DNA of 64,000 nucleotides. Source: Terebella lapidaria (taxonomy: Eukaryota; Annelida; Polychaeta; Terebellida; Terebellidae). Positions 900-20,682 of this stretch are shown in pieces. A model generated the notes under the pieces. The model did not search any database. It was not told the origin of the DNA and saw only the letters and a program-made list of their open reading frames with translations. The stretch covers positions 22,380,165 through 22,444,164 of the forward strand of contig OX424564.1 in NCBI GenBank assembly GCA_949152475.1, in the 5' to 3' direction. The position numbers and the translations under genes were made by a program. Each line of letters starts with the position of its first letter. Position 1 is the stretch's first letter.

Positions 900-1559
900 A
901 ATGCACCGAGACCTTGACTGAGCCGGGTAACATCTCGAACAAGGCCGCTGTCGTGGATCGTCGTCGTCAATCCGGGGCTGCGTCTACCGCCTCACCACCC
1001 CCACCGCCACCGCATGTCTCCTACTGCGAGTACTTCATTCAGGCGCCTAGCAATTCCTACATTGAGTTCAACTTGACGATGCCCCGGCGCCCACGAGATG
1101 GCATCAACGGAAGAAAACAACAACTATCGCTGCCACGGGACGCCGCCGGGCCCGTCTACGAAACCACCGTTACCACGACAACTGCACCACTTGACGACCT
1201 GCAGCAGCAGCTTCCATCATCATCATCTTCTTCATCATTAGCATCATCGTCATCATCATTATCGACGCCTCTTCCCGCTTCGCCCTCATCGTCCTCATCC
1301 CAGAACTCATCAGTGAGGAAAGTCCTTGACTCTCCGAGCTCAGCCTTCACGAACTGTCCGACAAAGCTGATGGTGGTCGAGGTGCGGGACGGCGGACTCG
1401 AGAAAACTCTGCGACGGTTCTGCATCGAGGAGAACGTAGAACTGTCGTTGCCACAAGTCTTTCACTCGAAGTCTCCTCTAATCAAACTCAACTATAGCTG
1501 GGAGAACGGCGGCCAGGGACCCAGCTTCGAGCTAAGCTTCGTTTTCCACAAGTGGCCTA
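900..1559 (+). CDS. LDLRAD4: CUB-domain exon of an LDLRAD4/PMEPA1-like membrane protein (internal exon)
   Basis: This internal exon gives about 220 residues of the ectodomain and has no start codon of its own. It follows the acceptor 'taattgcag', enters with two bases finishing a split codon (phase 1), and leaves in phase 1 at 'ccta|gtgagt'. Four cysteines fit a CUB domain: C1 at 902, C2 at 1025, C3 at 1355, C4 at 1421. C1-C2 is 41 residues apart and C3-C4 is 22. CUB-like strands are seen around 'YCEYFIQAPSNSYIEFNL' and 'KLMVVEVRDGG', with a final 'FELSFVFHKWP'. C2 and C3 are 110 residues apart, much longer than usual, because of a Gln/Thr/Ser-rich insert with poly-Ser runs (about 1201-1310). 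A Pro run lies near 996-1013. An N-x-S/T glycosylation site (N-L-T) is present. CUB assignment rests on cysteine pattern and strand motifs, not on a search. Membership in the LDLRAD4-like gene rests on phase and order with the next two exons. Confidence 0.7.
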
Positions 1560-2382: not shown

Positions 2383-3013
2383 GTGACCAAAGTTCGGGAT
2401 AGCCCTAAGTTCGGGAGTGAGGCTGATGCTTGGCTTTGCACGCTGTGTTGACGCCATTACCATCATTGTTTGTTTACATGTTGTTGTAGACACCTGACTC
2501 AAGTTCCATAGAAGAAAACAGTCAAATGCAAAATTGAAAATATTGTCTGTACAGCACACAATACCTAATAATAACACCAGCAGCGTCTGCTGGGAAATTT
2601 TCGTCGCCATCTTGATTATGATAATTAGTTGGGCATAAGCCACACCTATTATTTGGTATGGCACGCCATATGTCTGATATTGCGAAAGTTATTAATATTG
2701 GAATTGATCACCTACCTTATGAAGCTTAAATTGTTCACAATCTTTCGAATGAATTGTATGGTTGAATAGACATATTAGAATGATGGCTTGCCATATCCCG
2801 AACTTAGGCACACTTTCACTCGCTAGGGGCACTGCATACATTGTCAGTAAACAAACTTGCTGCTATTCGAAATCTCGTGGAAGATTTTCATGAAACACAT
2901 CACTGTCAGCGTAAACAATTGTAGTTCTGATTTTCATTTGACATTCATCAAATATTTCAGACATATTCTTTAGATACAGATTGAAACAGCTTAGTATCCC
3001 GAACTTTGGTCAC
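2383..3013. mobile_element. Candidate non-autonomous DNA element with 19-bp terminal inverted repeats
   Basis: The left end 'gtgaccaaagttcgggata' (2383-2401) is the exact reverse complement of the right end (2995-3013). Subterminal copies of the same core ('cctaagttcggga') lie near 2403-2415 and, inverted, near 2798-2812. No transposase frame is present and no clear target-site duplication was found, so the superfamily is not assigned. The 631-bp length and the inverted ends fit a MITE. Confidence 0.6.
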
Positions 3014-3673
3014 ACAATGCTACTACATGTAGTACAACAGGGTTATCGGGGGACACATTTCTGCATTTGTCTGCAACTCAACCCTCTAGTCACTGTGGGT
3101 TTTTTTTCTCAGGGAGGTTCATGTTTTTTCGGGGTATGGTCAACGTGTCAGTCTACATTATTACAATTAGAAACCCATTTATTCTCTTACGGGTTTCCGT
3201 TACAATGCATATTATCATGATTATGGGAAGTGCACTTCAAAGTAAAACTTGAACTGTAACATGACAATTTGTACAAGTTTGCAAGGAGACTTGTAGATTT
3301 GTCTCCTGTAGTCACGATGTATTTATGCCCTCAAAGTCTCCTACTTTTAAATTATGAGGGTAAAATCATGTACATGTACTTGATGCCTGTGTCATTATCA
3401 TACATGGTAATCAGGTAATCGTTGTAATGAGTATACATCTAACATGTACAATCGGAGTGTTGAGGAAGTTGTCCAGACTTGGCAATGGCATGGTCAGAAA
3501 ACCCCTATATATACTGTGTCTACTTGCAAACTTGTGGCTGTTGTCCAAGCGTGCAGATCAGATCATACCATATCTAAAGATCGGCTGTCCGATTTCCATG
3601 ATTTCAAACTTTCTGAAGACACCTGCATGTAAATGTACCGGTACATGTACCGGGTAATACTTTTTGGAGAAAG

Positions 3674-5907: not shown

Positions 5908-7474
5908 TTAAGGCATTTCGGCAGAAATGCCTTTATGGTTTTAGCAGAATTTTTTTTTTTTTCTTCTTCTTCTTCCGCCGTTTTGGTTTCTGGACGATAA
6001 CTTTAGATTGCCTTGATGGATCCTTATCAAATTTTCACCACCAGTCAGAAATGATATGTGGAAGAACCCTATTTTTTTTTGAGCCGGGTCCGAGGTCCGT
6101 GAGGATGAAATCAAGGTTTTTGGTTTCCGGACGATAACTCGAAAAATATTCAGGCAATAGATGCAGAACTCTGCATGGAGGTTCATATACTACCAGGGAA
6201 GAACCCTATTGATTTTGGGATCAATCCGTCAAATGACCTTTGACCTAGAGGTCAAAATAATTTTTTGCTGATTCATCCTTGAGGCTTTCTGCATATCTCA
6301 GAAACGGTGCGTCGTAGAGCGAAACAGACGTTATTTTCGGACTCGTCACTCTAGACAAACATGTCTATGGGTTTTTTTTTTTTTATTCGACTCCGAGGTC
6401 CATGAGGTCCGTGAGGATGAAATCAAGGCCGATTATGAGACTTGGTTTCCGGACGATAACTCGAAAAATATTCAGGCAATAGTTGCAGAACTTTGCATGG
6501 AGGTTTATATACCACCAGGGAAGAACCCTATCAATTTTGGGATTGATCCGTCAAATGACCTTTGACCTAGAGGTCGAAATAACTTTTGGCTGACTCATCC
6601 TTGAGGCTTCCTGCATATCTCGGAAACTGTACGTTGTAGAGCGAAACGGACGTTATTTTCGGACTCGTCGCCCTAGACAAACATGTGTAAGGGCCCATAG
6701 TAAGGGGTATTATGGATGAACTTTGACCTTGACCCGAAATTTTTTTGCCGAGTCGGCATTTTTCGTTTTCGTCGATATCTCGGAAACGGTGCGTCGTAGA
6801 GCGAAACGGACGTTATTTTCGGACTCGTCGCCCTAAACAAACATGTCTAACGGGTATTATGGATGAACTTTGACCTTGACCCGAAATTTTTTTTGCCGAG
6901 TCGACATTTTTCGTTTTCGCCGATATCTCGGAAACGGTGCGTCGTAGAGCGAAACGTACGTTATTTTCGGACTCGTCGCCCTAGACAAACATGTCTAAGG
7001 GGTATTATGGATGAACTTTGACCTTGACCCGAAATTTTTTTGCCGAGTCGTCATTTTTCGTTTTCGTCGATATCTCGGAAACGGTGCGTCGTAGAGCGAA
7101 ACGGACGTTTTTTTCGGACTCGTCGCCCTACACAAACTTGTCTAAGGGGTATGATGGATGAACTTTGACCTTGACCCGAAATTTTTTGCCGAGTCGGCAT
7201 TTTTCTGTTTCGTCGATATCTCGGAAACGGTGCGTCGTAGAGCGAAACAGACGTTATTTTCGGACTCGTCGTCCTAGACAAACATGTCTAATGGGTATGA
7301 TGGATGAACTTTGACCTTGACCCGAAATTTTTTTCGCTGAGTCGACATTTTTCATTTTCGTCAATATCTAGCAAACGGTGTGTCATAGAGCCCGTGGCAA
7401 ACATGTTTCAAATATTACGAATTAGTCCTAACACGAAATGCCTCCAAGGCATCTTTAGGCCTTGACGTCTAGTT
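5908..7474 (+). mobile_element. Composite satellite-bearing element, copy 1 (pearl/Helentron-associated type?)
   Basis: It starts with the hairpin 'aaggcattt' (5910-5918) / 'aaatgcctt' (5924-5932). It continues through a T-rich tract and two ~300-bp units containing 'ccggacgataactcgaaaaa', then five or so ~147-bp monomers with the core 'gatatctcggaaacggtg'. It ends in 'aggccttgacgtctagtt'. The same left and right ends bound two other copies at 9264 and 11524. Central tandem monomers between fixed ends, without coding capacity, are typical of bivalve pearl-like and Helentron-associated elements, but the family call is inference. Confidence 0.7.
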
Positions 7475-9263: not shown

Positions 9264-11197
9264 AACTAGACGTCAAGGCCTAAAGATGCCTTGGAGGCAT
9301 TTCGGTGTTAAGACTAATTTGTAATATTTATAAAATGTTTATCATGGACTCTACAATGCTCTACGACACACTGTTTCCAAGATATTGACGAAAACGAAAA
9401 ATGCCGACTTGGCGAAAAAAATTTAGGTCAAAGTTCATCCATAATACCCCCTTAGATATGGTTGTCTAGTGCCACGAGTCCGAAAATAACATCCGTTTCG
9501 CTCTACGACGCACCGTTTCCGAAATATCGACGAAAACGAAAAATGCCGACTCGGCGAAAAAATTTGAGGTCAAGGTCAAAGTTCATCCATAATACCCTTT
9601 AGACATGTTTGTCTAGTGCCACGAGTGCGAAAATAAGGTCCGTTTCGCTCTACGACGCATCGTTTCCGAGATATGGACGAAAACGGAAAAATGCCGACTC
9701 GGCATTTGAGGTCAAGGTCAAAGTTCATCCATAATACCCTTTAGACATGTTTGTCTAGTGCCACGAGTGGGAAAATAAGGTCCGTTTCGCTCTACGACGC
9801 ATCGTTTCCGAGATATGGACGAAAACGGAAAAATGCCGACTCGGCAGAAAAATTCAAGGTCAAGGTCGAAGGTCATCGTTAATACCCCTTAGACATGTTT
9901 GTCCAGGGCGACGAGTCCGAAAATAACGTTCCGACTCGGCAGGAAAATTCAAGGTCAAAGGTCATCCTTAATACCCTTTAGACATTTTGTCTAGGGCGAC
10001 GAGTCCGAAAATAATGTCCATTTCGCTCTACGACGCACCGTTTCCGAGATATCGATGAAAACGAAAAATGCAGACTCGGCAGAAAAATTCAAGGTCAAGG
10101 TCAAAGGTCATCCTTAATACCCTTTAGACATTTTGTCTAGGGCGACAAGTCCGAAAATAATGTCCGTTTCGCTCCACGACACACCGTTTCCGAGATATCG
10201 ATGAAAACGAAAAATGCCGACTCGGCGAAAAAATTTTACGTCAAGGTCAAAGTTCATCCATAATACCCCTTAGACATATTTGTCTAGTGCCACGAGTTCG
10301 AAAATAACAGCCTTTTCACTCTACGACGCATCGTTTCCGAGATATAGGCAAAAACGAAAAATGCCGACTCAGCAGAAAAATTCAAGGTCAAGGTCGAAAG
10401 TCATCCATGTGAGTGTGTATGTGTAGGTCAGGGGTTGAGGATTTCACATGAAGCCTTAATATATTGTAAGAATGTAGAGTAAGTAGTATTTAAATGTTTT
10501 TGTATTGATTATTTTTTCTTCGAGCTGTGGGATGCCTCTTTGTGTATATGTTAAATATTATTACAATCATTATCTGTGTGTTAGAGGTTATTACAATCTG
10601 CTGAGACTTCAATCCCACAGCTCAGAACCATTTAACTGATATTGGCATTGTATTGTGTAATTTATATGTGGTTCTGAAATAAAATGTAATGTAATGTAAA
10701 TGTAATCCTTAATACCCCTTAGACATGTTTGTCTAGGGCGACGAGTCCGAAAATAACGTCCGTTTCGCTCTACGACGCACCGTTTCCAAGATATGCAGGA
10801 AACCTCAAGGATGACTGGGCGAAAACTCTTCCGACCTCTAGGTCAAAGGTCGTTTGACGGATTGATCCCACAATCAATAGGGTTCTTCCCTGTTGATATA
10901 TAAACCTCCATGCAAAGTTCTGCAGCCATTGCCTACATACTTTTTAAGTTATCGTGCGGAAACAAAGTCCAAGAAACAACATTGATTTCATCCTCACGGA
11001 CCTCGGATCCGGCTGAAAAACAATAGGGTTCTTCCACATAATATGTCTGACCAATGCTGAAAATTTGGTGAAGATACATCGATGCAAACTAAAGCTATCG
11101 GTCGGAAACCAAAACGGCGGAAGAAAAAAAAAAAAAAAAAAAAAGGAAAAAAAAAATTCTGCTAAAACCATAAAGGCATTTCTTCCGAAATGCCTTA
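9264..11197 (-). mobile_element. Composite satellite-bearing element, copy 2 (inverted)
   Basis: Reverse-orientation copy: it opens at 'aactagacgtcaaggcctaa' and closes at 'gaaatgccttaat', the reverse complements of the right and left ends of copy 1. The centre holds about seven ~147-bp monomers, several internally deleted. A ~300-bp unrelated insertion sits at 10407-10708. A poly(A) tract at about 11124-11156 corresponds to the T tract of the other copies. Confidence 0.7.
10407..10708. mobile_element. Nested ~300-bp insertion with a repetitive 3' tail
   Basis: The satellite sequence is interrupted after 'tcatcc' (10401-10406) and resumes at 'ttaataccccttagac' (10709). The insert ends with '(atgta)n'-like 'aaatgtaatgtaatgtaaat', and 'atcc' flanks both sides as a possible short target duplication. 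A perfect 12-bp inverted repeat, 'gagctgtgggat' at 10522 and its complement at 10612, lies inside. The tail suggests a truncated retroposon 3' end, but no reverse transcriptase remains. Confidence 0.5.
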
Positions 11198-11523: not shown

Positions 11524-14092
11524 TTAAGGCATTTCGGCAGAGTTTTCTTCTTCCGCCACTTTTGGTTTCCGGAAGATAACTTTAGATTGCCTTGACGGAT
11601 CCTCATCAAATTTTCACCACAAGTCAGAAATGATATGTGGAAGAACCCTATTCTTTTTGAGCCGGATCCGAGGTCCGTGAGGTCCGTGAGGATGAAATCA
11701 AGGCTAATTTTGAGACTTGGTTTCCGGACGATAACTGGAAAAATATTTGTGCAATAGTTGCAGAACTCTGCATGGAGGTTCATATGCCGCCAGGGAAGAA
11801 CCCTATTGATTTTGGGATCGATCCGTCAAACGACCTTTGACCTAGAGGTCAAAATAATTTTTTGCTGGTTCATCCTTGAGGCTTCCTGCATATCTCGGAA
11901 ACCGTGCATCGTAGAGCGAAACGGACGTTATTTTCGGACTCGTCGCCCTAGACAAACATCTCTAAGGGGAATTTTTTTTTTTGATCCGGCTCCGAGGTCC
12001 GTGAGGTCCGTGAGGATGAAATCGAGGCTGATCTTGAAACTTGGTTTCCGGACGATAACTCGAAAAATATACAGGCAATAGTTGCAGAATTTTGCACGAA
12101 GGTTTATATATCACCAGGGAAGAACCCTATTGATTTTGGGATCGATACCTCAAATGACCTTTGACCTAGAGGTCGAAATAATTTTTTGCTGAGTCATCCT
12201 GGAGGCATCCTGCATATCTCGGAAACAGTGCATTGTAGAGCAAAACGGACGTTATTTTCGGACTCGTCGCCCTAGACAAACATGTCTAAGGGGTATTATG
12301 GATGAACTTTGACCTTGACCCGGAATTTTTTTGCCGAGTCAGCATTTTTCGTTTTCGTCGATATCTCGGAAACGGTGCGTCGTAGAGCGAAATGGACGTT
12401 ATTTTTGGACTCGTTGCCCTAGACAAACATGTCTAATGGATATTATTGATGAACTTTGACCTTGACCCGAAATTTTATTGCCGAGTCGGCATTTTTCGTT
12501 TTCGTCGATATCTCGGAAACGGTGCGTCTAAGAGCGAAACGGACGTTATTTTCGGACTCGCCGCCCTAGACAAATGTGTCTAAGGGGTATTATGGATGAA
12601 CTTTGACCTTGACCCGAAATTTTTTGCCGAGTCGGCATTTTTCGTTTTTCGTCGATATCTCGGAAACGGTGCGTCTAAGAGCGAAACGGACGTTATTTTC
12701 GGACTCGGCGCCCTAGACAAACATGTCTAATGGGTATTATGGATGAACTTTGACCTTGACCTTAAATTTTTTTGCCGAGTCGGCATTTTTCGTTTTCGTC
12801 GATATCTCGGAAACGGTGCGTCGTAGAGCGAAACGGACGTTATTTCCGGACTCGTCGCCGTAGACAAACATGTCTTAAGGGTATTATTGATGAACTTTGA
12901 CCTTGACCTTAAATTTTTTTGCCGAGTTGGCATTTTTCGTTTTCGTCGATATCTCGGAAACGGTGCGTCGTAGAGCGAAACGGACGTTATTTTCGGACTC
13001 GTAACCCTAGACAAATGTGTCTAAGGGGTATTATGGATGAACTTTGACCTTGACCCGAAATTTTTTGCCGAGTCGGCATTTTTCGTTTTTCGTCGATATC
13101 TCGGAAACGGTGCGTCTAAGAGCGAAACGGACGTTATTTTCGGACTCGGCGCCCTAGACAAACATGTCCAATGGGTATTATGGATGAACTTTGACCTTGA
13201 CCTTAAATTTTTTTGCCGAGTCGGCATTTTTCGTTTTCGTCGATATCTCGGAAACGGTGCGTCGTAGAGCGAAACGGACGTTATTTCCGGACTCGTCGCC
13301 CTAGACAAACATGTCTTAAGGGTATTATTGATGAACTTTGACCTTGACCTTAAATTTTTTTGCCGAGTTGGCATTTTTCGTTTTCGTCGATATCTCGGAA
13401 ACGGTGCGTCGTAGAGCGAAACGGACGTTATTTTCGGACTCGTAGCCCTAGACAAACATGTCTAAAGGGTATTACTGATGAACTTTGACCTTGCCCCGAA
13501 ATTGTTTTGCCGAGTCGGCATTTTTCGTTTTCGTCGATATCTCGGAAACGGTGCGTCGTAGAGCGAAATGGACGTTATTTTCGGACTCGTCGCCCTAGAC
13601 AAAAATGTCTAAAGGGTATTATGGATGAACTATGACCTTGACCCGAAATTTTTTTGTCGAATCGGCATATTTCGTTTTCGTCCATATCTCGGAAACGATG
13701 AGTCGTAGAGCGAAACGGACGTCATTTTTGGACTCGGCGACCTAGACAAACATGTCTATGGGGTATTATGGATGAACTTTGACCTTGACCTTAAAGTTTT
13801 TTGCTGAGTCAGCATTTTTCGTTTTCGTTGATATCTCGGAAACGGTGCATTGTAGAGCGAAACGGACGTTGTGTTCGGACTCGTGGCTCTAGACAAACAT
13901 GTCTAAGGGGTATTACAGATGAACTTTGACCTTGACCTGAAATGTTTTTTTGCTGAGTCGACATTTTTCATTTTCATCCTTATCTAGGAAACGATGTGTC
14001 ATAGAGCCCATGGCTAACATGTTTTAAATATTACGAATTAGTCCTAACACCGAAATGCCTCCAAGGCATCTTTAGGCCTTGACGTCTAGTTT
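11524..14092 (+). mobile_element. Composite satellite-bearing element, copy 3 (longest)
   Basis: It begins 'ttaaggcatttcggcag' and ends 'aggccttgacgtctagtt', the same boundaries as copy 1. It holds two ~300-bp units and about eleven 147-bp monomers. The last monomers are the most diverged, as in copy 1. The minus-strand open frames here are only translated monomers: 147 is a multiple of 3, so a frame open in one unit stays open across the array. Confidence 0.75.
12575..13455. repeat. Higher-order duplication of three 147-bp monomers (period 441 bp)
   Basis: Diagnostic variants recur in the same order 441 bp apart: the 'ggactcggcgccctag' variant at 12701 and 13142, preceded both times by 'cgtctaagagcg' and followed by the 'cttgaccttaaattt' and 'atgtcttaagggtatt' variants. 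Three times 147 is 441, so a trimer block was copied recently within copy 3. Confidence 0.75.
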
Positions 14093-15630: not shown

Positions 15631-15756
15631 GTCCATGCGAGCACCGGTGTGACGATGGTAGTTGTTTGCCAGATGGCGCTCTAGTCTGTAATTACGTCAG
15701 TGACTGTTTGGACCAGTCGGACGAGAATAACTGTCCTCCCAGGGACAAAAATATAG
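15631..15756 (+). CDS. LDLRAD4: LDL-receptor class A module exon of the LDLRAD4/PMEPA1-like protein
   Basis: The exon lies between 'tattttgcag' and 'gtcagt', phase 1 on both sides, and encodes one complete LDLa module. Six cysteines run C-x3-C-x4-C-x7-C-x5-C-x8-C. The calcium-binding acidic cluster 'SDCLDQSDENNC' is intact. The short C1-C2 gap of three residues and the 'LVCN' before the last cysteines are unlike a typical LDLa repeat, but match my recollection of vertebrate LDLRAD4. The split serine codon joins 'KWP' of the CUB exon to 'PCEHRC'. The last codons (P-R-D-K-N-I) lead directly to the transmembrane exon. The last ~20 bases of the exon are the seed of the minisatellite that follows. 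The module would lie outside the cell or in the endosomal lumen. Confidence 0.85.
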
Positions 15757-16790
15757 GTCAGTAACCACGGAAACTTTGATATATAACTTTTCCTGCAGTC
15801 ATGAAATGGTAGGTCAATAACCACAGAAATCTTGAAATATATAACTCCCCGCAGTCACAAAATTATAGGTCAGTAACCATGGAAACCTCGATATATAACT
15901 CTTCCTGCAGTCACAAAGATATATATACTTGGTATATAACTTTTCCTGCAGTCACAAAAATATAGGTCAGCTACCATGGAGACCTTGATATTTATATAAC
16001 TCCCTGCAGCCACAAAAAATATAGGTCAGTTACATCGGAAACCTTGATATATAACTCTCCTCGCAGTCACAAAGATATAGGTCAGTAACACCGGAAACCT
16101 TGATATATAACTTTTCCTGCAGTCACGAAATGGTAGGTCAGTAACCACGGAAACCTTGATATATGACTTCGCAGTCACGAAAAAATAGGTCAGTAACCAC
16201 AGAAATCTTGATATATAACTCCCCGCAGTCACAAAATTATAGGTCAGTATCCACAGAAATTTTGATATATACTAGTATAACTCTTCCCGCAGTTACAAAG
16301 ATACAGCTCAGTAACCATGGAAACCTTGATATATAACTCTTCCCGCAGTCACAAAGATATAGATCAGTAACCACGGAAACCTTGATATATAACTCTCCCC
16401 GCTGTCACAAAAATATAGGTCAGTAACCACGGAAACCTTGATATATAACTCTACTCGCAGTCACAAAGATATACAATGTAGGTCAGTAACACCGGAAACC
16501 TTGATATGTAACTTTTATTGCAGTGACAAAAATATAGGTCAGTAACACCGGAAACCTTGGTATGTAACTTTTCCTGCAGTCACAAAAATATAGGTCAGCT
16601 ACCACGGAGACCTTGATATATATAACTCCCCGCAGTCACAAAATATAGGTCAGTTACCACGGGAACTTGATATATAACTCTTCCCGCAGTCACAAAGATA
16701 TAGGTCAGTAACCACGGAAACCTTGATATGTAAGTTTTCCTGCAGTCACGAAAATATAGTTCTCTCCACAGTCACAAAAGTACCATTTAA
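15737..16790. repeat. Minisatellite of ~17 units (~56 bp) that copies the exon end, its donor and an acceptor-like site
   Basis: Units follow the plan 'gtcagtaaccacggaaacct', then 'tgatatataact', then 'cttcccgcag', then 'tcacaaaaatatag'. The first unit starts exactly at the donor of the LDLa exon, and the last bases of the exon ('cccagggacaaaaatatag') align with the end of each unit. About 17 full units and one partial unit are present, with length changes (one has a 40-bp internal partial copy). Each unit therefore carries an acceptor-like pyrimidine-AG and, 14 nt later, a donor-like TAG|GTCAGT. Similar unit orders recur (unit 2 resembles unit 8; units 3-5 resemble 14-16), showing block duplication. 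Confidence 0.9.
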
Positions 16791-20506: not shown

Positions 20507-20682
20507 AAAGCAGCCACTTCATGGAGGTGGTAGTGATAGTTGTAGTCGTTGTGTTCACGCTGGGCGTCGTCTCCTGCGTATTTTTCCACTACCGGCTGAC
20601 GTCGAGGTTCTACCGACAGAGGGAGAGCAGCAGTAGCGCAGAACATCACCATCTAAACCCTCAGACCCCGCAATCCGGAGAG
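20507..20682 (+). CDS. LDLRAD4: Transmembrane and juxtamembrane exon of the LDLRAD4/PMEPA1-like protein
   Basis: The exon runs from 'tatcccgcag' to 'gagag|gtaagg'. It enters with two bases that complete a Glu codon begun by the LDLa exon (phase 1) and ends exactly on a codon (phase 0). After 'ESSHF' comes a hydrophobic helix of about 22 residues, 'MEVVVIVVVVVFTLGVVS' plus 'CVFF', then 'HYRLTSRFYRQRE', a Ser run, His-His-His and a polar tail. The valine-rich helix, the cysteine near its cytoplasmic end and the following His-Tyr-basic motif match the family's membrane segment. The order implies a type I protein with LDLa outside. In vertebrate relatives the tail binds SMAD2/3 and NEDD4-type ligases through a SMAD-interaction motif and PPxY; neither is in this exon, so they should lie in later exons. 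Confidence 0.85.

Follow-up and report, generated by a model that had tools for sequence, protein, structure and literature searches.

Among the closest described systems are the lancelet "mirages", which are located in Adh3, the globins BflGb6 and BflGb9, troponin C and PGBD5 (PMC3087553, PMC3902484). According to the accessible parts of these two papers they occur at 5' as well as 3' boundaries and carry AG/GT signals in many copies; regular splicing is reported to be undisturbed, with support from RT-PCR, and length instability is reported as well. In humans, a 31-bp VNTR of the CBS gene is described as c.1444_1467+7(16_21) with 16–21 units in the available text of PMC2630376, and internal tandem repeats at exon-intron boundaries of genes in segmental duplications are stated to be able to change splicing (PMC2812944, in part). 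Tandem duplication has also been discussed as a route to intron gain, the cases given in the accessible section of PMC4974935 being the Rogers model, potato RdRp and ATP2A1. For annelids, the available part of a paper on earthworm metallothionein genes mentions intronic minisatellites and exon duplications missing from the transcript, and gives a donor consensus of GTYAGK (PMC12783039). A minisatellite paper on C. elegans deals, in the portion at hand, with intronic motifs and not with junction copies (PMC4039745).

Here we describe an array in the polychaete Terebella lapidaria which, like the lancelet mirages as far as their sources go, is a minisatellite-like tandem duplication of an exon-intron boundary with splice signals kept in many units.

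Gene context and structure of the array

The window, i.e. the whole stretch of 64,000 nucleotides that was analysed (contig OX424564.1, C11 in our numbering), belongs to a genome assembly of 761.6 Mb in 438 contigs. All features below are given in window positions.

900..1559, + strand: upstream exon of the same gene, within an open frame at 806–1621; limits and phase inferred by eye
15631..15756, + strand: LDLa exon (Pfam PF00057), with the copied segment at its 3' end
15727..15756, + strand: final 30 bases of the exon, with homology to the units (25 of 30 shared with unit u06)
15757..15762, + strand: inferred true 5' splice site GTCAGT (U1 duplex −8.3 kcal/mol)
15757..16757, + strand: 18 tandem units with a 56-bp consensus, GTCAGTAACCACGGAAACCTTGATATATAACTCTTCCCGCAGTCACAAAAATATAG (TRF and splitting at the donor)
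15813..16709, + strand: region holding the 14 decoy donors that keep GT (unit-by-unit donor check)
16758..16790 (end approximate), + strand: incomplete 19th copy (TCTCTCCACAGTCACAAAAGTA) (splitting at the donor)
20507..20682, + strand: next exon with, by eye, a transmembrane segment and the start of the cytoplasmic tail (in-frame translation with exon 2)

The upstream exon ends in phase 1 at a GTGAGT donor (GT at 1560, U1 duplex −7.6). It appears CUB-like by eye; a Pfam search with it returned no family at E 1. When exons 2 and 3 were joined as query, PF00057 matched with an E-value of 1.3e-5 and 25.8 bits against a cut-off of 24.1. The LDLa exon runs in frame into the transmembrane exon, which itself ends at a GTAAGG donor (U1 duplex −10.1), while its phase with exon 1 was read by eye. 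The array occupies the start of the 4.75-kb intron between these two exons, and among 15 donors tested only the one at 15757 holds the frame into the transmembrane exon. A paralogue search for the receptor gene gave five matches; four were its own exons and one was weak, over the LDLa part (E 9e-4).

TRF reported the array at 15748–16759 with a period of 56, 18.2 copies and 72% matches. With up to 3 mismatches allowed, a junction probe, CACAAAAATATAGGTCAG, had 13 matches in the window where 0.07 would be expected, and 12 of these were the exon end or the array. Cutting the array at the donor yielded 18 full units of 44–64 bp, eight of them exactly 56 bp long. The preliminary description had counted about 17 copies of the junction: the duplication of the 5' splice junction is confirmed, the count becomes 18 full units plus the partial 19th. 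It had further assigned the exon end followed by GTCAGT to every unit. The junction is indeed copied, but GT is kept in only 14 of the 18 units (15813, 15869, 15966, 16025, 16081, 16137, 16189, 16243, 16419, 16482, 16538, 16594, 16649 and 16704); the units ending at 15921, 16306, 16362 and 16757 have no GT at the donor place. A search of the genome with 170 bp of the array (E ≤ 10), which skipped very common words and scored the best candidates only, gave eight matches, all inside the array, with no copies elsewhere and no second haplotype. A dispersed repeat or transposon-borne satellite is therefore not supported by this search.

Exon sequence in the repeat unit

The exon and the unit consensus share the terminal 12 exon bases without a mismatch. 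In the 22 bases before these, 12 match in register (P 0.002 by shuffling, P 0.001 after correction for scanning), and for the extension of the homology past the 12 bases we obtained P-values of about 0.001–0.003 from shuffles and from the window background. When the last 30 exon bases were compared with single units, matches ranged from 9 to 25 over the 18 units, u06 being the best with 25 of 30; as this count is ungapped, units with indels score low. Among the ends of control LDLa exons from the same genome, the in-register score is attained by one of 102 and the best-unit score by none. Over the remaining 18 positions, without the 12 identical ones, the best unit still has 14 matches, a value equalled by none of 97 control exons (maximum 11, ungapped). 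Homology of the unit to a whole stretch of about 60 exon bases was rejected: local gapped alignment of the longer stretch to the consensus was not significant (P 0.06–0.11), with three of 102 control exons aligning as well, and we claim only about 30 bases.

The copied segment thus probably extends 30 nt into the exon, as judged by sequence comparison, with moderate support beyond the terminal 12 bases. The 30 bases code for N-N-C-P-P-R-D-K-N-I, a peptide that contains the last LDLa cysteine. The array had been described as starting exactly at the 5' splice site; instead, the homology takes in at least 12, and probably 30, of the last exon bases, so that exon and intron bases of one junction are found together in the unit. 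Since the segment probably extends this far, the acceptor-like pyrimidine-CAG ("CGCAG") of the units is probably a decayed copy of the Cys-Pro-Pro-Arg codons. A second GTCAGT is present inside the LDLa exon at 15696.

Decoy donors and micro-exons

The strength of the decoy donors was assessed by the energy of the duplex with U1. Seven of the 14 GT-bearing decoys pair at −8.3 kcal/mol or better, the value of the true site, two at −8.2, and five are weaker; the decoy nearest to the true donor (15813) is weak at −5.1. Out of 270 GT dinucleotides in the intron 12 reach the value of the true site, and only two of these lie outside the array. The GTCAGT motif itself agrees with the earthworm consensus GTYAGK, as given in the accessible part of PMC12783039. 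The idea that units offer a decoy donor is thus borne out for 7 of the 18 units, in which local strength is on a par with the true donor. Donor scores far below that of the true site, as the preliminary description expected of an inert repeat, were not what this crude U1 score gave. Since seven decoys equal the true donor locally, a faithful choice of donor needs context beyond the local match.

All 14 decoy donors lead to the reading NIGQ-stop at most 8 bases past the exon end (TAA at 15762–15764). Micro-exons between an acceptor-like CAG and the following donor were located by script in 12 cases: ten are 14 nt long and carry an in-frame stop (TAG), one of 13 nt shifts the frame and one of 21 nt is open. 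Reading by eye added an open 15-nt micro-exon in unit u05. A 14-nt micro-exon in each unit, as first proposed, therefore holds for ten of the 12 found and not for those of 13, 21 and 15 nt. The proposed disruption of the frame before the transmembrane segment becomes sharper, as the usual 14-nt micro-exon closes with a TAG in frame. In the 20 bases before each of the 17 acceptor-like CAG sites, pyrimidines make up 55–65%; the corresponding values for the true acceptors are 60% (exon 2) and 85% (exon 3).

These features would be expected if the array tuned splicing, with 14 decoy donors and poison micro-exons competing with the true donor and the copy number setting the ratio of membrane-bound to truncated, soluble or degraded product. 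Half of the GT-bearing decoys equal or beat the true donor in U1 pairing, the same stop follows from all 14, ten of 12 micro-exons contain a stop, and the CAG of the units is very well kept. Furthermore, the number of CBS repeats in humans is reportedly linked to reduced CBS activity, to go by the title of Lievers 2001. Against competition of this kind stand the gap from GT to CAG in neighboring consensus units, which is only 42 nt, the reported silence of the lancelet mirages in the accessible text (PMC3087553, PMC3902484), and the column conservation described below. We consider such a tuning role unlikely.

Conservation, folding and age of the array

Selection on the splice motifs was sought by circular shifts of the unit columns, and no clear signature was found. 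The donor columns are conserved at 0.907 compared to 0.854 overall, a value reached by 30% of the shifts, and the polypyrimidine tract shows the lowest conservation of any stretch of its length (0.715); both speak against tuning. The CAG of the units is conserved at 0.981, with 5% of the shifts as high, which weakly hints at constraint. The RNA of 15700–16600 folds less stably than shuffled sequences (z +4.1), all 20 shuffles being at least as stable; the decoys are therefore not hidden by unusual structure, and their sequestration in the RNA was rejected.

Mean pairwise identity between units is 76%, and neighbors are on average no closer than other pairs. The best unit pairs occur at lags 1, 6 and 7 (93–95%), whereas the top mean identity is found at lags 7 and 11. 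From the unit sequences the array seems to have grown partly by multi-unit blocks, and the units look old, a pattern that does not suggest rapid current slippage or a fresh expansion. Altogether the results on conservation, folding and unit identity argue for a near-neutral repeat and are compatible with low-level use.

Exon edges elsewhere in the genome

A search for the LDLa family scored 150 matches out of 1,248 candidates, and the best 30 of these were taken as loci of about 3.1 kb each. In these loci a regular expression identified 103 LDLa stretches with 108 testable sides on both strands; as the ends were set by the regular expression, not every one of the 108 is a splice junction. With a threshold of z 6, same-side repeats were detected at four of the 108 sides: an acceptor at L012, an acceptor and a donor at L015 and a donor at L036. 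A fifth side, the donor at L027, was recognized by TRF and a separate screen (28 bp, z 8.0). Junction duplication is thus present at 5 of 109 sides, in 4 of the 30 loci. The earlier TRF/self-similarity screen is meaningful for plus-strand loci only. Locus L028 (z 20.9), where coding LDLa repeats lie in a giant coding exon, was set aside, and cases with z 3–5 (L015, L016, L032, L038) were not counted.

L012 (positions 618–1554 of the locus, contig C17 of the assembly, around 295701) contains about 12 copies of 78 bp with 95% matches, comprising the acceptor and the first half of the LDLa domain. This array is mostly one open frame (303 aa), and use of inner acceptors could add modules of 26 residues in frame. 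The duplications in L015 are located at 2606–3105 and 1378–1535: LDLa codons plus donor are repeated in an array with periods of 47 and 128 bp, and another acceptor is duplicated once, giving two copies. L027 carries LDLa codons followed by GTGAGTA in decaying copies (1585–1720), and in L036, on the minus strand, the exon end with GTATGT is repeated imperfectly (2219–2467).

The recurrence bears on the direction of copying. The opposite direction would place an intronic minisatellite first and let the exon end slide into its first unit, the last exon codons being derived from the array. The residues PPRDKNI that follow the final LDLa cysteine have the look of a linker free of constraint, and the 12 terminal bases fit either direction; however, the homology continues into the LDLa motif codons AAT AAC TGT in u06, and the copies at the L015 and L027 exon edges contain LDLa codons, so that we regard this order of events as improbable.

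For comparison we analysed random non-exon positions, where same-side repeats with z > 6 were found at 42 of 224 positions, in 11 of 28 loci; this control covers the downstream side of one strand, leaves out L011 and L028, and uses positions that are not independent within a locus. Random positions are therefore repetitive more often than exon edges (5 of 109), and exon junctions as a hotspot of duplication are not supported. In the genome regions sampled, tandem arrays are frequent, TRF arrays covering 14% of the 30 LDLa loci, and arrays seem to start anywhere, some of them catching a junction. Together with the unit columns, in which splice motifs are not clearly better conserved, this finding weakens the suggestion that the array buffers or tunes splicing, and of the functions initially considered it favors that of a near-neutral by-product.

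Another tandem repeat, a satellite of about 147 bp (nucleosome length), is located in the preceding intron of the gene (12214–14007, 6701–7391 and 9358–10406 of the window), and one with a consensus similar by eye lies near LDLa exons on contig C1 (L027 1–915, L038 1–665).

Other observations on the assembly

The mitochondrial contig has 15,973 bases and contains TGA inside COX1. The protein genes recognized on it by eye lie on one strand as cox1-cox2-cox3-nad6-cob-atp6-nad5-nad4L-nad4-nad1-nad3-nad2, which we take to be the annelid order. Small contigs of the assembly, among them C235, C363, C255, C110, C25 and C149 (G000; loci L052–L054, L062, L065 and L067), code for many protein-kinase domains with in-frame TAA/TAG. 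Genetic code table 6 lengthens the longest open frame 2- to 6-fold in six of six such loci analysed, compared to 5–19% in three chromosomal controls, and a ciliate, perhaps a commensal, seems to have been co-assembled with the worm. A second COX1 (L041, G000:C417:44633–46450) is in two pieces with TGA codons and 24% GC; its longest open frame is 717 aa under table 4 and 138 under table 1. It possibly represents a ciliate mitochondrial genome.

Discussion

We consider it likely that the array is a largely inert mirage and at most a source of low-level splicing noise. According to this explanation a segment of about 56 bp across the junction, made up of about 30 bases of exon and about 26 of intron, would have been duplicated in tandem and then amplified by unequal exchange of single units and of several units at a time. 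Fresh copies would land on the intron side and be spliced out along with the intron, while the real exon edge would remain the outermost copy, alterations there being harmful to the receptor. Exon definition can govern the choice of splice sites, and the spliceosome most likely stays with the outermost copy, given that exon definition would favor the short real exon of 126 nt and that the lancelet mirages are reported as harmless to regular splicing. If splicing keeps to the outermost copy, a junction-spanning duplication does not alter the coding region, and further copies can therefore accumulate in the intron. Occasional use of a decoy would produce a premature stop before the membrane segment, and the transcript may then be truncated or degraded.

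A ladder for recursive splicing, in which each TATAG/GTCAGT would be a zero-length ratchet point shortening the intron stepwise, is extremely improbable: AG does precede GT immediately in the units and a pyrimidine stretch lies upstream, but 4.75 kb is short for an intron spliced in this way, steps of 56 nt are very short, and the CAG 14 nt upstream would as a rule be used first.

The serial decoy donors of equal strength represent a natural competition experiment on how the spliceosome chooses the outermost of several near-identical sites; no paper on competing 5' splice sites was found in the open-licence literature. The recurrence within one annelid genome provides further test cases for the birth of introns and exons by tandem duplication. 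It is doubtful, however, that junction-spanning arrays in this annelid lineage are frequent enough at exon edges to form a permanent supply of decoy donors and poison micro-exons, of in-frame inserts (the 15- and 21-nt units; at L012 the half-LDLa modules) and of new introns, and that at the same time the number of decoys sets the proportion of membrane-anchored to truncated receptor.

Comparison with known systems

As far as the literature searched shows, mirages were already known from lancelets and human CBS; annelids add a new phylum, and the recurrence is the most useful addition. No report of annelid mirages was found in the open-licence literature, relative to which the recurrence extends mirages beyond cephalochordates. 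Rogers-model intron gain shares with our array a duplicated segment carrying splice signals, as far as the accessible section describes it (PMC4974935); unlike there, no new intron is evident here and the copies lie within an existing one. The boundary repeats in human segmental-duplication genes are similar in that a minisatellite is located at an exon-intron boundary (PMC2812944, in part). The human CBS repeat, by its name, joins coding bases to the initial 7 bases of the intron and so has a 5' splice junction in each unit, as here. In the available text its units are invariably 31 bp long, differ by single-nucleotide substitutions and show known length polymorphism, compared to 44–64 bp in our array (PMC2630376). 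The lancelet systems are cephalochordate and not annelid: two BflGb6 haplotypes have 6 and 3 units according to the parts at hand (PMC3087553, PMC3902484), whereas the array in T. lapidaria comprises 18 old-looking units.
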